Origin: Elusimicrobiales bacterium
GTDB lineage: Bacteria > Elusimicrobiota > Elusimicrobia > Elusimicrobiales > UBA9959
DNA length: 55,947 nt
Reading direction: 5' to 3'
NCBI GenBank assembly: GCA_031082205.1
Contig: JAVHLJ010000015.1
Span: 1-55,947, forward strand
Shown: one piece after another, positions 22,532 to 55,947 of the stretch
Layout of the letters: every line of letters starts with the position of its first letter
Numbering within the stretch: position 1 is the stretch's first letter
Position numbers and translations under genes: made by a program
The notes under the pieces: generated by a model
What the model was told of the DNA's origin: nothing
Databases searched by the model: none
What the model saw: only the letters and a program-made list of their open reading frames with translations

Positions 22532-22786
22532 ATGGCTGAGAAAGTAATGAAACTGCATGTTAAGCGCGAGGATGGTTTCCTTTATTACATCGACAAGCAG
22601 GGCGATGTTTCCCGCGCCAAGATGGCCCGCGGCGGCAAGAAGGGCGGCAAGCCCTCCAAGGTCGCCAAGGCCGGCGTCAAGAAAGAGGAAGGCTTCCTGT
22701 ATTTCCTCGACAAGGCCGGCGACATATCCCGCGCCAAGATGGTCAACGCCGGGAAAGGCAAGAAGAAGGCCAAGAAGCGCAAGTAA
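22532..22786 (+). CDS. Small basic protein made of two copies of a ~30-residue motif
   Basis: An 84-residue Lys-rich protein with two near-identical halves: VKREDGFLYYIDKQGDVSRA (about 10-29) and VKKEEGFLYFLDKAGDISRA (about 49-68), each followed by a K/G-rich tail. There is a good GGAGGG ribosome site upstream and a strong terminator right after it, so it is an independent, probably highly expressed monocistron. I do not know a characterised family. The high positive charge suggests nucleic-acid binding, and the aromatic motif could be a small beta-hairpin unit. Confidence 0.75.
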   Translation: MAEKVMKLHVKREDGFLYYIDKQGDVSRAKMARGGKKGGKPSKVAKAGVKKEEGFLYFLDKAGDISRAKMVNAGKGKKKAKKRK

Positions 22787-47879: not shown

Positions 47880-50384
47880 ATGACAGCGAACAAGAACGAC
47901 AAGAACCAGCCGGTGGACAACATCTTCGCCAATATCGTGGACCGCGATATCAGCGAGGAGATGAAGGCGTCCTACATAGACTACTCGATGAGCGTCATCG
48001 TGGGCCGCGCGCTGCCCGACGTGCGCGACGGCCTCAAGCCCGTGCACCGCCGCGTGCTCTACACGATGGACGACATGGGCCTGCAGCACAACAAGCCCTT
48101 CAAGAAGAGCGCCCGCATAGTCGGCGACGTGATGGGCAAATATCACCCGCACGGCGACTCCGCCATCTACGACACCCTGGTGCGCATGGCGCAGAACTTC
48201 TCCCTGCGCTACCCCCTGGTGGACGGGCAGGGCAACTTCGGCTCCGTCGACGGCGACCCGGCCGCGGCCATGCGTTACACCGAGGCCCGCCTCTCGGGCA
48301 TAGCCGGCGAGCTGCTGGCGGACATAGAGAAGGAGACGGTCAAGTGGGTGCCCAACTACGACGGCTCGATGACCGAGCCCAGCGTGCTGCCCGCCAAGCT
48401 CCCGAACCTGCTGGTCAACGGCTCCTCGGGCATAGCGGTCGGCATGGCCACCAATATCCCCACCCATAACCTCGGCGAGGTCTGCGACGCCACCATCGCC
48501 GTCATAGAGAACCCGGACATCGACTCGAAGGAGCTGATGAAGGTCCTCAAGGGCCCCGATTTCCCGACCGGCGGCATCATCCGCGGCCGCAAGGGCATCA
48601 AGGATTACTTCGAGACCGGCCGCGGCTCGGTCAAGATACAGGCCCGCACCGAGATAGAGGAGATCAAGGGCAACCGCGAGGCGATAATAATAACCGAGAT
48701 CCCCTACCAGGTGAACAAGTCCGCCCTGATAGAGAACATAGCCGAGCTGGTCAAGGACAAGAAGATCACCGACATCTCCGACATCCGCGACGAGTCGGAC
48801 CGGCGCGGCATGCGGGTGGTCATAGAGATCAAGCGCGACGGCAACGCCCAGGTCGTGCTCAACCAGCTCTACAAGCACACGCAGATGGAGACCAGCTTCG
48901 GCGTCATCATGCTGGCCATCGTGGACGGCCGTCCGCGCGTGCTGCCCGTCAAGGAGGTCATGAGCCAGTACGTGCGCCACCGCCGGCTCATGGTCGTCAA
49001 CCGCACCAAGTACGACCTCAAGAAGGCGCTGGCCCGCGCCCACATACTGGAAGGCTACCTGATAGCCCTCAAGAACATCGACGCCGTGGTGGAGATAATC
49101 AAGAAGTCCAAGGACGCGCTCGAGGCCAAGGGCAAGCTGATGGCCAAGTTCGCGCTGAGCGACATACAGGCCCAGGCGATACTGGACATGCGCCTGCACC
49201 AGCTCACCCGCCTCGAGGCCGGCGCCATCGAGGAGGAGCACAGGGCGCTCATGAAGCTCATCGGCGAGCTGCGCGCCATCCTGGCCGACCCGAAGAAGGT
49301 GCTGAAGATAATCGTCGACGAGCTCAGGTACATGAAGGAGAAGTACGGCGACAAGCGCAGGACCGACATAACCGGCGAGGCGCAGGAGCTCGACATCGAG
49401 GACCTGATCCCCGAGGAGAAGGTCGTCATCACCATGAGCCACGGCGGCTACATCAAGCGCATCCCGGCCGACACCTACAAGGTGCAGGGCCGCGGCGGCA
49501 AGGGGATCATCGGCTCGGACGTGAAGGAGGAGGACTTCATCGAGAAGCTCTTCGTCACCTCCAGCCACGCCACCATCCTGATGTTCACCACCCGCGGCAC
49601 GGTTTACGCGCTCAAGGGCTACGAGATCCCCGAGGGCAACCGCACCTCCCGCGGCAAGGCGATAGTGAACCTGCTGCAGATAAAGGACGAGAAGGTCACC
49701 TCGGTGCTCGCCGTGGAGTCCTTCGAGGAGGCCAAGGGGAAGGAAAGCTTCATCGTGATGTGCACCCGCAAGGGCAACATCAAGAAGACCCCGATCGCGG
49801 ACTTCGCCAACATACGCCGCAGCGGCATACGCGCCATCGGCCTGGAGGACGGAGACGTGCTGACCAGCGTCGAGCATACCGACGGCAAGCACGAGATAAT
49901 CATCGGCACCCGGCAGGGCATGTCCATCCGCTTCAGCGAGAGCGACGTGCGCGCCATGGGACGCGGCGCGATGGGCGTGCGGGGCATAAGGCTGGACAAG
50001 GACGACCAGGTCATCGGCATGGAAGTGGCCGAGCAGAAGACCAGGAAGACCCTGCTTACCGTCTGCGTCAACGGCTACGGCAAGCGCACCGACCTGGACG
50101 AATACCGGCATCAGGGCCGCGGCGGCTCGGGCGTCATCACGATCAAGGCGACGGACCGCAACGGCGCCGTGGTCGGCATCCACCTGGTGGAGAACAAGGA
50201 CCACCTGATGGTCATGACCGAGAAGGGCAAGATAATACGCATGCCCATCAAGGACCTGCGCGTCATCAGCCGCAATACCCAGGGCGTGCGCCTGGTGAGG
50301 CTCGAGGAGGGCGACAGGATCGCCTCCGTCGAACCGGTCGTGGAGGAAGAGGAAGGCGGGGCCGCGGCCGAAGAGGCCAGGTAG
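47880..50384 (+). CDS. gyrA: DNA gyrase subunit A
   Basis: An 834-residue breakage-reunion subunit. The catalytic Tyr is in [15 protein letters not shown] (about residue 127). [20 protein letters not shown] is the family core, and the GyrA box in [12 protein letters not shown] plus six beta-propeller repeats make the C-terminal wrapping domain, so this is gyrase rather than topo IV. AAGGAG lies upstream. A strong hairpin follows. Confidence 0.97.
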
Positions 50385-50496: not shown

Positions 50497-52059
50497 ATGA
50501 AAGTCTACGAAGGGACCATAATCTCCTGCGACCGGGCCGGCCGCGTGCACCGGTACCTGGCCGAACACAAGGGGCGCATAGCGTACGCGGGCGAAGCGCT
50601 GCCGGCGGAGTACGCCGGCGCGCCCAGGGAAAAGCTCGGCGTCCGCGCCCTTGTCCCGGCTTTCGGGGACACCCACGCGCACCTGCTTTCCCACGCCTTC
50701 TTCAGCGCGGGCCTGGACGTCCGCGGGGCGCGCACCCTGGACGAGCTGGCGGGCGCCGTGCGCGATTTCGCCCGGGACAGGGATGACGGGGTGCTTGTCG
50801 GTTTCGGGGCCTCTCCCCACAGCGTGGCCGAGCGCCGGATGATAACCCGCGCCGAACTGGACGGCGCCTGCCCGGACAGGGCGGTGCTGCTGGTCAAGTA
50901 CGACGGCCACGCCGCCGTCGCCAACAGCCGCCTGCTGGGGATGCTGCCCGGGAGGGTCCGCGGCCTGCGGGGGTTCGACCCGGAGACCGGGGCGCTGGGA
51001 CTGGAAGCGTTCTACGCAGCCACGGACTTCGCGGCGAAGAAGGTGCCGCTTCCCCGGGCCCTGGCCGGCCTGCTGCGCGCGGTGGACGGCATGGCCGCCA
51101 GGGGGATAGGGCTGGTGCACAGCGCGGCCGGCGTCGGATTCCCGCTCGATCTCGATGTATCGATGGAGACCCTGCTCTTCAGGGGCCTCGACAGCGGCTT
51201 CCAGGGCCGCGTGTATTTCCAGACCATGGATATCGGCAAGGTCCGGCGGCGCGGCCTGCCCCGCGTCGGCGGCTGCTTCGCCGCGGCGCTCGACGGCTGT
51301 TTCGGCAGCGCGGACGCGGCGCTGCTGGAGCCCTATTCGGACGACGCGCGCAGCAAGGGGACGCTCTTCTTCTCCGACCGCCAGGCGGCCGATTTCGTGA
51401 AGAGCGCCAACCGCGCCGGCCTGCAGGCGGCCATGCACGCCATCGGCGACGCCGCGTTCGAGCAGGCGGTGCGCGCCATAGAGGCCGCCCTCGCCGACTT
51501 CCCCCGCGGCGACCACCGTCACACCATAATACACGCCTGCCTCCCCACCGACGAGGGGCTGGAAAAATGCGCCAGGCTGGGGATACACCTGGCGGTGCAG
51601 CCGGCTTTCCTCGGCTGGGAACAGGAACCGTGGGAATACCTGGAGCGGATACTGGGAGGCAGGGCCGCCGGATTCTGCCCGCTGCGCCGCGTGGCGGACA
51701 TGGGGATAACGATGAGCGGCGGCTCGGACGCGCCGTGCACGCCGCCGGACCCGATGCTCGGAGTTCACGCGGCCTGCAATCACCCGGTGCCGGGGCAGTC
51801 GCTGACGGCCGCCGAGGCTCTGCGGCTCTTCACCTATAACGCCGCCTGGGCTTCCTTCGACGAGGGCGAGAGGGGAAGCCTGGAGACGGGCAAGATCGCC
51901 GACATGGCGGTGCTGAGCGGCGACCCGCTGACGGTGGAACCGGCGGCGCTCGCCGGGCTGAAAGTCGAGAAACTTCTTCTGAAAGGCGAGCCCTACCGGG
52001 GCGGACAGGGAGTCCTGGGCGCGCTGGCCCGCGGCCTCCTGGGCGGCGGCAGGGCCTGA
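50497..52059 (+). CDS. Amidohydrolase-3 family metal-dependent hydrolase (YtcJ-like)
   Basis: A 520-residue TIM-barrel hydrolase. FGDTHAHLLSH gives the HxH metal pair, VKYDGHAAVANS is a typical Amidohydro_3 segment, HAIGDAAFEQAV a metal His, and GSDAPCTPPDP the last metal Asp. The substrate of YtcJ-like proteins is mostly unknown (formamides, exoenzyme-like). No signal peptide is evident. It has its own promoter and converges with the methyltransferase of the right-edge operon, 16 nt away. Confidence 0.85.
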   Translation: MKVYEGTIISCDRAGRVHRYLAEHKGRIAYAGEALPAEYAGAPREKLGVRALVPAFGDTHAHLLSHAFFSAGLDVRGARTLDELAGAVRDFARDRDDGVLVGFGASPHSVAERRMITRAELDGACPDRAVLLVKYDGHAAVANSRLLGMLPGRVRGLRGFDPETGALGLEAFYAATDFAAKKVPLPRALAGLLRAVDGMAARGIGLVHSAAGVGFPLDLDVSMETLLFRGLDSGFQGRVYFQTMDIGKVRRRGLPRVGGCFAAALDGCFGSADAALLEPYSDDARSKGTLFFSDRQAADFVKSANRAGLQAAMHAIGDAAFEQAVRAIEAALADFPRGDHRHTIIHACLPTDEGLEKCARLGIHLAVQPAFLGWEQEPWEYLERILGGRAAGFCPLRRVADMGITMSGGSDAPCTPPDPMLGVHAACNHPVPGQSLTAAEALRLFTYNAAWASFDEGERGSLETGKIADMAVLSGDPLTVEPAALAGLKVEKLLLKGEPYRGGQGVLGALARGLLGGGRA

Positions 52060-52075: not shown

Positions 52076-52930
52076 TTACTTCTTTCTTCCGATGCACTCG
52101 AGATAGCGGAAGGTGACCGTGAGGCCGCCGCGTTTTTCCATTTCCCCGGCGACGGCTGCGAAGAATTCCCCGCGGCGCTCCGGCTTCAGTGCCGCGGCCA
52201 GGCCGGCCGCGGGGCCGGAATCGTTCAGCCATTCCGCGAGCGAAGAGGCGTTCCTGAAAGAATGCGTCAGCGCGCGCTCCTCCAGCCTTTCGACGCTCAG
52301 CCCGCCGCGCCCGGCGGCGGCGAGGAAAGCGGCCCGGCCGGGCGGGAAATTTATCGGCGGGAAGCGCCGTATGGACCCGGGGCGCCGCAGCAGCAGGGGA
52401 GCGACGGCCCGCTGCAGCTCGGAGAGCGACTCCGCGGTGCTGACCAGCATGGCCGCCCTGCCGCCCGGGGCCAGGGCGCGGGCGCACAGGCGCAGCAGCG
52501 GGCCCGGCCGGCAGTACTCGGCCGACCAGAGCGCGCATACCAGGTCCGCCGAAGCCGCCGGGCGGCCTTCCAGGAATTCCGTCATGCCTGCGCGGGCGAA
52601 GGAGACGGGGCAGGGGGCGCCGGCCGCCGCCCTCTCCGCGACGGACAGCATGCCTGCCGAGATGTCGCAGGCGTCCACCCGCCCCGACGGCCCCGCCGCG
52701 CGGGCCAGCAGGAGCGCCGAGTGGCCGGTGCCGCAGCCGAGGTCCAGGCAGCGCGAGCCGGGGCGCAATTCCAGCCGCGCGATGAGATCTTCGGAGGCCC
52801 GTTTCGTCAGCGGCCGTGTCTCGGCCAGGTCGTAGGTCCCGGCCCGCAGGTCGTAATCCTGCCTGTAAAGGTCGTCTCCGCCGGAGAGCCGGCCGGCCAG
52901 GCCGAAGAGGGCGCGTACCAGCGCGTTCAC
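52076..52930 (-). CDS. UbiE-like SAM-dependent methyltransferase
   Basis: A 284-residue enzyme. CLDLGCGTGHSALLLARAAG is motif I, DACDISAGML the acidic loop; the region around RRFPPINFPPGR and the C-terminal part are family-specific. It could be a C- or O-methyltransferase acting on a quinone-like or lipid substrate. The GTG start overlaps the stop of the upstream radical SAM gene (GTGA), so it is part of the same operon. Earlier in-frame extension is an artefact of the overlapping gene. Confidence 0.78.
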   Translation of the reverse strand: MNALVRALFGLAGRLSGGDDLYRQDYDLRAGTYDLAETRPLTKRASEDLIARLELRPGSRCLDLGCGTGHSALLLARAAGPSGRVDACDISAGMLSVAERAAAGAPCPVSFARAGMTEFLEGRPAASADLVCALWSAEYCRPGPLLRLCARALAPGGRAAMLVSTAESLSELQRAVAPLLLRRPGSIRRFPPINFPPGRAAFLAAAGRGGLSVERLEERALTHSFRNASSLAEWLNDSGPAAGLAAALKPERRGEFFAAVAGEMEKRGGLTVTFRYLECIGRKK

Positions 52931-54129
52931 GGGCGGGAGGCCTCCCCGCCTTTCGCCGCGCGCGGCCGCTCGCGGTCGTTGCCGAACAGGGCCTCCCAGA
53001 AAGGAAGTTCCTCTCCCCTGTTGCTGACATGTCCTATCGGGAATTTCCGTATCTCCTCCAGGTCCGCCCCGCCGGCGGCCGGCCAGGAGAAGATCTCCAG
53101 GTTGAAAGTGGTGCGCTCCTCCGGCGGCATCTCCGGTTCCAGCGCCATGCGCAGCGCGCCGGCCAGGCCGGCGCGGGAGGCCGCCTCCAGCCAGAAGGCC
53201 GGGCCCGGCGCGGCCGCCGTCCGGGCGCGGCGGCGCAGGACGTTGAAGAAGTTCATCACGAAATAGTTCACGGTGGCGCCGCGGCGGTTGGAGACGGCGT
53301 TCTCGCCGAACATCTCTTCCAGCGTGAAGCCGGTGGCCGACGAGACCAGCCGCAGCAGGTCGCTCATGTAGATACGCTCCCGCGGGCTGTGGACGCCGAT
53401 ATCGGAGACGTTGCGCAGCCGCAGCTGCCGCACGAAGTCCATGTTCCGGAGTCCGAAGCGGACCACCGCGGCCAGTTCGTCCTCGTTGACGCCCCGCGCC
53501 AGCGTCATGGACAGGATGGTGCGGACCTTCAGCGCTTTGAGGTTGCGCAGGGCCGCCGCTTTCTCGGCGGAGAGGTCCCGCCCGTTGAAGAACTCGTGGG
53601 TGGCGGGCCGGAAGCCGTTGAGCGACAGGATGCAGTAGTCGAGGCCGCTGTCCTTTAACAGCGCGGCGAAGGAGCGGTCGGCCAGCCGCAGGCCGTTGGT
53701 GAGCAGCACCGAGCGCTTCTCCGGGTGCGCGCGCCTGACATGGGCTATCAGTTCCGGCAGCTCGCGGCGCAGGCAGGGCTCGCCGCCGGAGAAGACGATG
53801 TGCCGGGCCGGCGTAGCGGCTATCATCTCCCTGATCCTGTCCGCGCCGAACTCGCGGCCCCGCTCGGGCAGGTAGCACCAGCGGCAGGACAGGTCGCAGG
53901 CGTAGCTGACCGGTATCACCAGGCCGTAACGGACCGGCCTGTTATGGCGGGTGGAGGCGCAGCGCAGGTAGATCTCCGCGTCCCGGTCGGCCGTTTCGGA
54001 GGACCGGCCGTGGGCGGGGCAAAGGGTATCCATCACCGCGCGCCCTCCCTCCTCGTAGAGCTCGGCGTCGGTCTCCTCCAGGCAGGAGGGGCAGAGCCCG
54101 CGCGTCCTCTTTATAAGCCGCCGTTCCAC
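52927..54129 (-). CDS. Radical SAM enzyme with N-terminal Cys-rich module (Tes-like layout)
   Basis: A 400-residue protein. The N-terminus has GLCPSCLEETDAELYEE and LCPAHG, a C-x2-C...C-x2-H/C module like the one found in archaeal tetraether-lipid synthase relatives (MJ0619 type). The radical SAM cluster motif is SYACDLSCRWCYLPE (C-x3-C-x2-C, about residues 76-90), with FSGGEPCLRREL as the GGE SAM loop. No SPASM motif is evident. It lies 3 nt after the SPASM radical SAM gene and overlaps the methyltransferase. Function is inferred only: a C-C bond-forming or other radical reaction on a lipid or peptide. Confidence 0.65.
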   Translation of the reverse strand: MERRLIKRTRGLCPSCLEETDAELYEEGGRAVMDTLCPAHGRSSETADRDAEIYLRCASTRHNRPVRYGLVIPVSYACDLSCRWCYLPERGREFGADRIREMIAATPARHIVFSGGEPCLRRELPELIAHVRRAHPEKRSVLLTNGLRLADRSFAALLKDSGLDYCILSLNGFRPATHEFFNGRDLSAEKAAALRNLKALKVRTILSMTLARGVNEDELAAVVRFGLRNMDFVRQLRLRNVSDIGVHSPRERIYMSDLLRLVSSATGFTLEEMFGENAVSNRRGATVNYFVMNFFNVLRRRARTAAAPGPAFWLEAASRAGLAGALRMALEPEMPPEERTTFNLEIFSWPAAGGADLEEIRKFPIGHVSNRGEELPFWEALFGNDRERPRAAKGGEASRP

Positions 54130-54132
54130 GGT

Positions 54133-55353
54133 CTAATCCCAGCCCAGCTTGCGGTACAGCTTCGGCACCGGCCGGGGCCCCATGGAAGACAGGACCTTCT
54201 CTATGGCCGCCGGGTCCTTGAGCGGCAGGCGGCCGCCGGAGAGCGCGTCTATCTCCCGGTAGACCAGCTGGCTCACGCAGCCGTGCGAAGGGGAGGGGAA
54301 GCTTTTTGTCATCCTGGCGTAGACGTCGCCGAAGGATTCGGAGGCTATGCTGCCGAAACCCATGGGCACGAAGTCGCAGGGGCAGACGTCGCCGTCGGCG
54401 CTCACGTAGACGTGCGTCCTGCCGGCGCTGCAGCCGAAGTTGTTTATCGTGCCGATATGCGGCAGGGACATTATGACCGGCAGGGAAGCGTCCCGGTTGA
54501 TCTCGTACTGCAGCTCAACGAACTTCGCCACGTCCTTCTCCTCGAGGAGCTCGAAGTTCCCCTTGATGACCCGGCCGCAGGGCTTGGGCCGCAGTATCCT
54601 TATCTCGTGCACGCCGAGGGAGCCGGCGAACTTTATGAAGTCGTAGATCCTGCCCGAGTAGAGGATGTCCTTGGTGATCACCATGGAGACGGCAGAGTAG
54701 AGCCCGGCCCCTATGGAGTTCTTCAGCGCGCTCACGGCCTCGGCGTGGGCCGAGGCCGAGTTCCTGTTGGCGTTATGCTCGGCCGGGACGTGGCTGTCGA
54801 GGCTGACCACCACGGCCGTCAGGCCCGCCTTCTTCAGCGAGGCGGCGCGGGCGGCGTCGAGCCCGCGGCCGGAGGTGAAGAGCAGCTTGTACGACCTGTC
54901 GTCCGCGCCGGAGACCAGGCGCTCCAGGTCGCCCCTCAGCAGCGGCTCGCCGCCGGTGAAGCCTATGCACGCCGCGCCCAGGTCCTGCGCCTGGCCGATG
55001 GCCCGCGCCAGCGTATCGAAGGGGAGGTCGTCGCGGCCGCTGCCCGGATTGCTGCAGTACCAGCATTTCAGATGGCACCTGTTGGTGACCGAAAAATACA
55101 CCGAGAAAGGGCTGGTCTTCTTGCGGGCGGAGTTGGAGAAATAACCCAGGGCGGAGCGGAAGGCGCGGGTGCGCAGCGGGGTATAAGTGGTGTTGATGAA
55201 CAGCTTTCCGTCCAGTTCCGTGGCTTTCTCGAAACGCATCTGGCGGGCCATGAACCACAGGAAGCCCGGGGGCAGGGCGGCCAGCCCGCCGTCGAGGGCG
55301 GCGGCGCCCAGCTTCAGGTATTTCATGAGACCGGTGTGTCTTTTCGCGGGCAT
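54133..55353 (-). CDS. SPASM-type radical SAM enzyme
   Basis: A 406-residue enzyme. An N-terminal helical region (about 1-70, with LDGGLAALPPGFLWFMA) precedes the motif VTNRCHLKCWYCSNPG (C-x3-C-x2-C, about residues 91-106), with GFTGGEPLLRGDLERL as the GGE loop. The C-terminus has GCSAGRTHVYVSADGDVCPC, the cysteine pattern of a SPASM auxiliary cluster domain. It may act on a peptide or small molecule; a precursor peptide was not found nearby. The start is MPAKRHTG, 2 nt after the UbiA stop. Confidence 0.75.
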   Translation of the reverse strand: MPAKRHTGLMKYLKLGAAALDGGLAALPPGFLWFMARQMRFEKATELDGKLFINTTYTPLRTRAFRSALGYFSNSARKKTSPFSVYFSVTNRCHLKCWYCSNPGSGRDDLPFDTLARAIGQAQDLGAACIGFTGGEPLLRGDLERLVSGADDRSYKLLFTSGRGLDAARAASLKKAGLTAVVVSLDSHVPAEHNANRNSASAHAEAVSALKNSIGAGLYSAVSMVITKDILYSGRIYDFIKFAGSLGVHEIRILRPKPCGRVIKGNFELLEEKDVAKFVELQYEINRDASLPVIMSLPHIGTINNFGCSAGRTHVYVSADGDVCPCDFVPMGFGSIASESFGDVYARMTKSFPSPSHGCVSQLVYREIDALSGGRLPLKDPAAIEKVLSSMGPRPVPKLYRKLGWD

Positions 55354-55355
55354 AT

Positions 55356-55947
55356 TCACCCGAGGATCAGGTCGGCCAGCGAAGAGAAGGCCACCAGCAG
55401 GATGTTGGCGAAGATGAGCTTCGAGAAGACGGCGTCGGGGGCCCGCAGGCCGGCGAGCAGGCAGGCCGCGGCGGCCAGGGCCCCGGCCAGGTACACCGGC
55501 CCGCACATGCCCAGCAGGTAGGGCAGCAGCGACACGGGGACGCCGGCCAGGGCCAGGCCGGCCGCCAGCCGCCGCGCGCGCGCCGGGCCGGTCTTCATCG
55601 GCAGCGTGCTGCCGCCGCCGGCCCTGTCGCCCGGCAGGTCTATCACGTCGCGCATGATCTCGTAGGCCATTATCTCCAGGAAGAACCAGAAAGGGAAGAC
55701 GTAAAGGCTGTCGCGCCGCGGCGAAGGGGCGCCGCCCGAGGTGAGCGCCAGCGACAGCGGGTAGATGGAGGTCACTATCAGAGAGATGGCGGCCGCCTTG
55801 AAGACGCCCAGGCGCTTGGAGCGGAGGTTGTACAGGGCCAGCGCCGCGGTGAGCGGCAGCGCCACGGCCGCGAACCAGCTGTTGACGAAGAACGCCGTCC
55901 CGGCTCCCGCCGCCAGGGCGGCCCGGCTGCCGCGCGGCCCGGCCCTG
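55356..55947 (-). CDS. UbiA-family prenyltransferase, 5' end outside the window
   Basis: The open frame runs off the right edge; about 196 codons are visible. Membrane helices are clear: GTAFFVNSWFAAVALPLTAA and further blocks. The second UbiA motif is RDVIDLPGDRAGGGSTLP (D-x2-D-type region with GD and TLP), typical of UbiA enzymes including quinone and archaeal-type geranylgeranylglyceryl-phosphate prenyltransferases. The first NxxxDxxxD motif lies beyond the window. It transfers an isoprenoid to an acceptor in the membrane and heads the operon with two radical SAM enzymes and a methyltransferase. Confidence 0.82.
   Translation of the reverse strand, partial: RAGPRGSRAALAAGAGTAFFVNSWFAAVALPLTAALALYNLRSKRLGVFKAAAISLIVTSIYPLSLALTSGGAPSPRRDSLYVFPFWFFLEIMAYEIMRDVIDLPGDRAGGGSTLPMKTGPARARRLAAGLALAGVPVSLLPYLLGMCGPVYLAGALAAAACLLAGLRAPDAVFSKLIFANILLVAFSSLADLILG

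Follow-up and report, generated by a model that had tools for sequence, protein, structure and literature searches.

Radical SAM (rSAM) enzymes perform several long-missing steps of membrane-lipid chemistry, as exemplified by Tes and GMGT synthase, and SkfB and PqqE act on peptides. In Tes, the N-terminal rubredoxin site has the form C9X2C12X20C33X2H36 (PMC9433317). Here, we analysed a stretch of DNA, hereafter the window, which corresponds to the entire 55,947-nt contig C6 and ends within an operon for a UbiA-family prenyltransferase, an rSAM enzyme with a SPASM region, a second, Tes-related rSAM enzyme and a methyltransferase (MT). This gene set, its product and its pathway were not found in the open-access literature searched, consistently with the preceding sequence-only reading, which knew of no characterised pathway of such composition. 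The individual parts belong to known superfamilies; for their combination, for the orphan lipoprotein encoded by a fifth gene and for the cluster-reduced Tes relative, no description was found in that literature.

Operon structure and contig ends

The cassette occupies positions 52076-55946 on the minus strand of the window, where four genes lie head to tail (Table 1). The UbiA gene ends at 55356 and is separated by 2 nt from the rSAM/SPASM gene, which is followed after 3 nt by the second rSAM gene; the latter and the MT gene share a 4-nt GTGA overlap. These coordinates agree with the single minus-strand operon originally proposed, and the same arrangement recurs in two other genomes. The four genes of that proposal therefore stand, but a fifth was overlooked, since the contig end interrupts UbiA and the operon continues past 55947. 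Indeed, the rightward extension that had been suggested as a check uncovered the 5' part of UbiA at the terminus of another contig of this genome, C50 (G000:C50:5-262, E 2.4e-37) and, 20 nt upstream of it, a gene for a 254-aa lipoprotein with the lipobox LAGC, which precedes UbiA in both other copies too. Of the further genes sought in this way, neither one for acceptor synthesis nor one for a conserved precursor peptide is part of the cassette.

In a GC-rich stretch, the final 30 nt of the window (55918-55947) repeat the adjoining C50 end in reverse complement, and this inversion is probably an assembly artefact. The first ~10 residues of the UbiA frame in the window are therefore probably artefactual as well. 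Downstream of the cassette lie a convergent amidohydrolase gene (50497-52059), missing from that position in one of the other two carriers (G002), and gyrA (47880-50384). Elsewhere in the window, positions 22547-22786 encode a basic protein of 79 aa in which an EExGFLYxxDKxGDxSRAKM-like motif is repeated.

Table 1. Features of the cassette within the window
Feature	Positions	Strand	Basis
UbiA-family prenyltransferase, 3' two thirds	55356..55946	-	Pfam UbiA; full-length homologues L034:1586-2422, L033:7939-8772
Second Asp-rich catalytic motif of UbiA, DVIDLPGD	55626..55649	-	Asp residues invariant in 3/3 copies
Radical SAM enzyme with SPASM/twitch-type auxiliary-cluster region, 406 aa	54133..55353	-	Pfam Radical_SAM and SPASM; relatives, tree
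Radical SAM motif CX3CX2C of the SPASM enzyme (C93, C97, C100)	55054..55077	-	Invariant in 15/15 relatives
Auxiliary-cluster cysteines C308, C326, C359 of the SPASM enzyme (plus C324 here)	54277..54432	-	C308 and C326 invariant; C359 in 12/15 relatives
Second rSAM enzyme, Tes/TrsS-related, without auxiliary-cluster cysteines, 400 aa	52927..54129	-	NCBIfam; alignments to 7tol and Tes/TrsS relatives
N-terminal metal site C13-X2-C16-X20-C37-X2-H40 of the second rSAM enzyme	54010..54093	-	Invariant in alignment of the copies; Tes rubredoxin-site spacing
Radical SAM motif CX3CX2C of the second rSAM enzyme (C78, C82, C85)	53875..53898	-	Alignment
Class I SAM-dependent methyltransferase, 284 aa	52076..52930	-	Pfam Methyltransf_25/11; kin to MT domain fused to SPASM relatives

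Distribution and conservation of the cassette

Searches across ~340 Elusimicrobiota genomes found the five genes together and in identical order in exactly three of them, all from uncultured bacteria, namely the window's own genome (G000), the same-genus MAG Elusimicrobia bacterium X2_MetaBAT.4 (G002; WOVA01000001) and a MAG of another genus (G034; JAUSCK010000102). The rSAM enzymes are ~88% and 70-74% identical to their counterparts in the two other copies and the MT 79 and 58%, and the lipoproteins of G000 and G034 share 68% of their residues. Each of the five genes evolves with a dN/dS of 0.13-0.27, that is, all are under purifying selection. Given these ratios and the recurrence of frames, order and spacing in two other genomes, the gene set is not a chance assembly.

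In the other ~337 genomes of the phylum, neither UbiA nor the second rSAM enzyme nor the lipoprotein showed a close relative. Beyond Elusimicrobiota, the searches covered close relatives of the second rSAM enzyme as well as plasmid and phage records; for the former, they returned two loci, both from Elusimicrobiota. The lipoprotein matched no family and, at E 0.001, nothing among the ~340 phylum genomes apart from its three carriers, and can be regarded as an orphan; its AlphaFold model, built from a single sequence, is poor (pLDDT 36).

In G000 and G002, the cassette sits between gyrA and marC. In two species of the window's genus where the searches did not detect it (G001 and G003), marC comes directly after gyrA at a distance of 70 nt, which represents the empty site, and the different flanks in G034 identify a second chromosomal site. 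The cassette is thus a co-inherited unit that can be moved or lost. We also considered whether homologues of its genes occur only in unrelated contexts, a finding that would have spoken against the sequence-only reading; instead, other Elusimicrobiota also show links between MT and SPASM and between UbiA and SPASM.

The UbiA-family prenyltransferase

The assignment of the first enzyme as a UbiA-type prenyltransferase was confirmed by Pfam PF01040 (92 bits for the full-length homologue L034 against a cut-off of 34.2) and by its Asp-rich motifs, NDxxDxxxDxxNRP and DxxDxxxD, which are both intact in complete homologues, the second one being present in the window. Among solved structures, its sole sequence match was the Methanocaldococcus DGGGP synthase MjDGGGPS (6m31; E 3e-13), and the nearest plasmid records were haloarchaeal GGGP geranylgeranyltransferases. 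Family scores nevertheless fell far under every cut-off, at about a third of them (97 bits versus 269-296), including that of the DGGGP synthase family NF009521 (97 bits, cut-off 296). As judged from these matches, the enzyme appears to resemble glycerol-ether prenyltransferases more than aromatic ones, with digeranylgeranylglyceryl-phosphate synthase as the closest.

This relationship bears on two pathways. Were the UbiA protein a DGGGP synthase and the second rSAM enzyme a Tes-like chain coupler, the cassette would contribute to archaeal-type isoprenoid ether or tetraether membrane lipids, and the proximity to DGGGPS speaks for such a role. However, GGGP synthase (PF01884) was not found in the carrier genome, which is estimated to be 100% complete, with a control search positive in seven genomes; we accordingly rejected the archaeal ether-lipid pathway, which seems very improbable also in view of the features of the second rSAM enzyme described below.

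Alternatively, the cassette could make or modify a respiratory or redox quinone, either menaquinone-like or new, with UbiA prenylating the ring and the MT acting as a UbiE-like ring methylase. The co-occurrence of UbiA with a UbiE/BioC-like methyltransferase fits this proposal, as does the participation of rSAM enzymes in the futalosine pathway. Yet the genome encodes another UbiA on contig C10, which is MenA-like (161 bits, under its cut-off) and adjoins a polyprenyl synthase gene; the MqnA/MqnD family of the futalosine route (PF02621) was not found in the genome; the cassette UbiA lies nearer to glycerol-ether than to aromatic prenyltransferases; and the sister species do without the cassette. 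The separate C10 enzyme led us to discard the cassette UbiA as the genome's MenA or MqnP, that is, as a member of the standard quinone branch, and we consider a quinone product, which the sequence-only reading had also envisaged, unlikely in general. The polyprenyl synthase beside the C10 gene could still serve the cassette as a source of prenyl diphosphate.

The SPASM enzyme and its methyltransferase

The second gene of the operon encodes a protein that matches Pfam SPASM with 30 bits (cut-off 21.5) and combines the rSAM core with the C-terminal auxiliary-cluster cysteines C308, C326 and C359, the fourth ligand not being constant among 15 relatives. In a tree whose deep support is modest and some of whose branches are long, this protein and its relatives separate from those of rSAM-rich clusters. 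Most weaker SPASM matches were left aside on this basis as a different lineage, whose clusters are crowded with other rSAM genes and lack UbiA.

Relatives from two other families (~36% identity; L065-L067, L069 and L070), in five genomes, are single proteins of ~668 aa whose C-terminal part is a methyltransferase domain. A sixth genome (L068) has the two as separate genes, the methyltransferase one sharing four bases with that for SPASM. The operon MT, a UbiE/BioC-like protein with Pfam Methyltransf_25/11 matches, the L068 MT and the fused domains match one another with E values of 1e-5 to 1e-24 among the loci compared; the window's two other methyltransferase-like genes gave weak profile matches only. 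These fusions suggest that the SPASM enzyme and the MT would form a functional pair. At L068:5765-10421, genes for an rSAM enzyme, an M16 peptidase, the methyltransferase and the SPASM rSAM enzyme stand in a row, possibly as a separate maturation system.

Other SPASM relatives have neighbours with a lipid flavour. In a more distant lineage (L071-L073), one operon holds UbiA, SPASM, DAG-kinase family, AIRS-type, FMN oxidoreductase, BioF/SPT-type synthase and NAD epimerase genes, possibly for an unusual sphingolipid or prenyl-lipid pathway. These seven genes overlap tightly (L072:7824-15476; also L071 and L073), with L072 and L073 read most fully. At 30% identity, the L072 UbiA shows no specific affinity to that of the cassette, and its link to SPASM may be convergent. 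On the Haliovirga abyssi plasmid pHIC (L125:11929-20497), a SPASM rSAM gene adjoins one for a KAS III-type synthase (ketoacyl-ACP synthase III) within a cluster that looks like one for lipid or hydrocarbon synthesis and export; DMT transporter, DUF1302, MMPL transporter and LolA-like genes lie there as well. At L074:8225-11880, the SPASM relative stands beside genes for a PPDK_N-type protein and an epimerase, as well as for a small membrane protein that has no Pfam match and by eye is reminiscent of dolichol/phytol kinases. The neighbourhoods in the L071-L073 lineage and on the Haliovirga plasmid are suggestive of lipid-like substrates.

They also weigh on a further alternative, a RiPP or protein-modification system in which the SPASM enzyme would mature a peptide and UbiA would be unrelated or prenylate it. 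The solved structures nearest to the SPASM enzyme include the peptide-acting SkfB and PqqE, as such a system would predict; against it stand the lipid-enzyme contexts of SPASM relatives, the lipids and small molecules that UbiA enzymes use as substrates and the lack, in all three copies, of a small conserved ORF or precursor-peptide gene between or beside the cassette genes, where internal gaps and flanks are short. We regard it as the least probable of the readings weighed here. Separately, an anti-phage defence function was dismissed, as PADLOC matches reflect just the generic rSAM (viperin) and methyltransferase folds.

The second radical SAM enzyme

Pfam recognised Radical_SAM and the HMPTM zinc ribbon in the second rSAM enzyme. 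Its best NCBIfam match, TrsS (NF045646), scored 124.4 bits and Tes (NF045702) 109.8 bits, with cut-offs of 490 and 450, respectively, that were not reached. The protein aligns with Tes (7tol) over residues 5-266 (E 4.5e-33), a homology that counts in favour of ether-lipid synthesis. A fold search with a poor three-sequence AlphaFold model (pLDDT 51) also placed 7tol as the best match. The rSAM motif is kept, and C13, C16, C37 and H40 show a spacing identical to that of the Tes rubredoxin site (PMC9433317). Together with the Pfam matches, this spacing bears out the earlier view of two rSAM enzymes, one with a Tes-related N-terminal module.

In alignments to 7tol and to Tes/TrsS relatives, however, the stretch corresponding to the N-terminal auxiliary [4Fe-4S] cluster of Tes (C73, C77 and C80 plus a His) is deleted, and no conserved Cys follows C166, which removes the C-terminal auxiliary [4Fe-4S] cluster; at the tail positions that are Cys in Tes/TrsS relatives, the enzyme has FP and PFW. 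Because both auxiliary-cluster sites of Tes are absent, the second rSAM enzyme is not a tetraether synthase, and a Tes-like tetraether function, hinted at in the sequence-only reading, was abandoned.

Proposed function

The explanation that best accommodates the whole locus, in which we place about even confidence, is that an anaerobic bacterium uses the cassette to produce, in its inner membrane, a small prenylated molecule of lipid-like character. In this model, UbiA, from a DGGGP-synthase-like branch, would take a polyprenyl group from a polyprenyl diphosphate, which genes outside the cassette would provide, and transfer it to an acceptor that is hydroxylated or aromatic. As a pair, the SPASM enzyme and the MT would introduce a radical modification into the head group and then methylate it; the second rSAM enzyme, devoid of auxiliary clusters, may perform a single hydrogen-abstraction step; and the lipoprotein might bind, transport or anchor the product at the envelope. 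The model is anchored in the operon structure, the co-inheritance of the five genes, the intact prenyltransferase and rSAM motifs, purifying selection and the MT-SPASM fusion, and the substrate, order of steps, product and lipoprotein role outlined here are inferred from families and context. The restriction of the set to three genomes, the UbiA scores under the cut-offs and the lipoprotein without a family count against it, and the product cannot be named because the cassette has no acceptor-synthesis gene.

More tentatively, and at clearly less than even confidence, the locus may stand for an undescribed class of anaerobic isoprenoid lipids or cofactors, whose head group would be shaped by an obligate SPASM-rSAM/MT pair and a cluster-reduced Tes paralogue encoded in an Elusimicrobiota-spread cassette, the SPASM-MT pair being a wider module used for different lipids. 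With UbiA and two rSAM enzymes in five genes, the cassette is a lead, amenable to experiment, towards a new prenylated metabolite; gene fusions back the rSAM/MT partnership, and the sister species have an empty site.

Comparison with known systems

The cassette UbiA aligns over its full length with digeranylgeranylglyceryl phosphate synthase (6m31) and shares both Asp-rich motifs, but differs in its scores, far under the family cut-offs, and in a genome where the GGGP synthase that would supply the DGGGPS acceptor was not found. With SkfB and PqqE, the SPASM enzyme has in common the architecture of rSAM and auxiliary-cluster regions, whereas an N-terminal extension of ~80 residues, UbiA and MT as partners and the lack of a peptide substrate gene set it apart. 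The rSAM/SPASM-methyltransferase fusions belong to the same SPASM lineage (36% identity) and carry a related MT domain, yet they are one ~668-aa protein, with neither UbiA nor a second rSAM gene seen nearby. The C-terminal tail of the second rSAM enzyme can be aligned with that of TrsS, its best NCBIfam match, although it scores under the 490-bit cut-off, has its cluster cysteines replaced and contains no selenocysteine. Finally, this enzyme shares with Tes/GDGT-MAS (7tol) the rSAM core and the N-terminal CX2C-X20-CX2H site, but, with 400 versus ~500 aa, it dispenses with the CX3CX2C-plus-His auxiliary cluster and with the C-terminal cluster cysteines; as a Tes relative stripped of its auxiliary clusters, it represents a natural test of what these clusters do.
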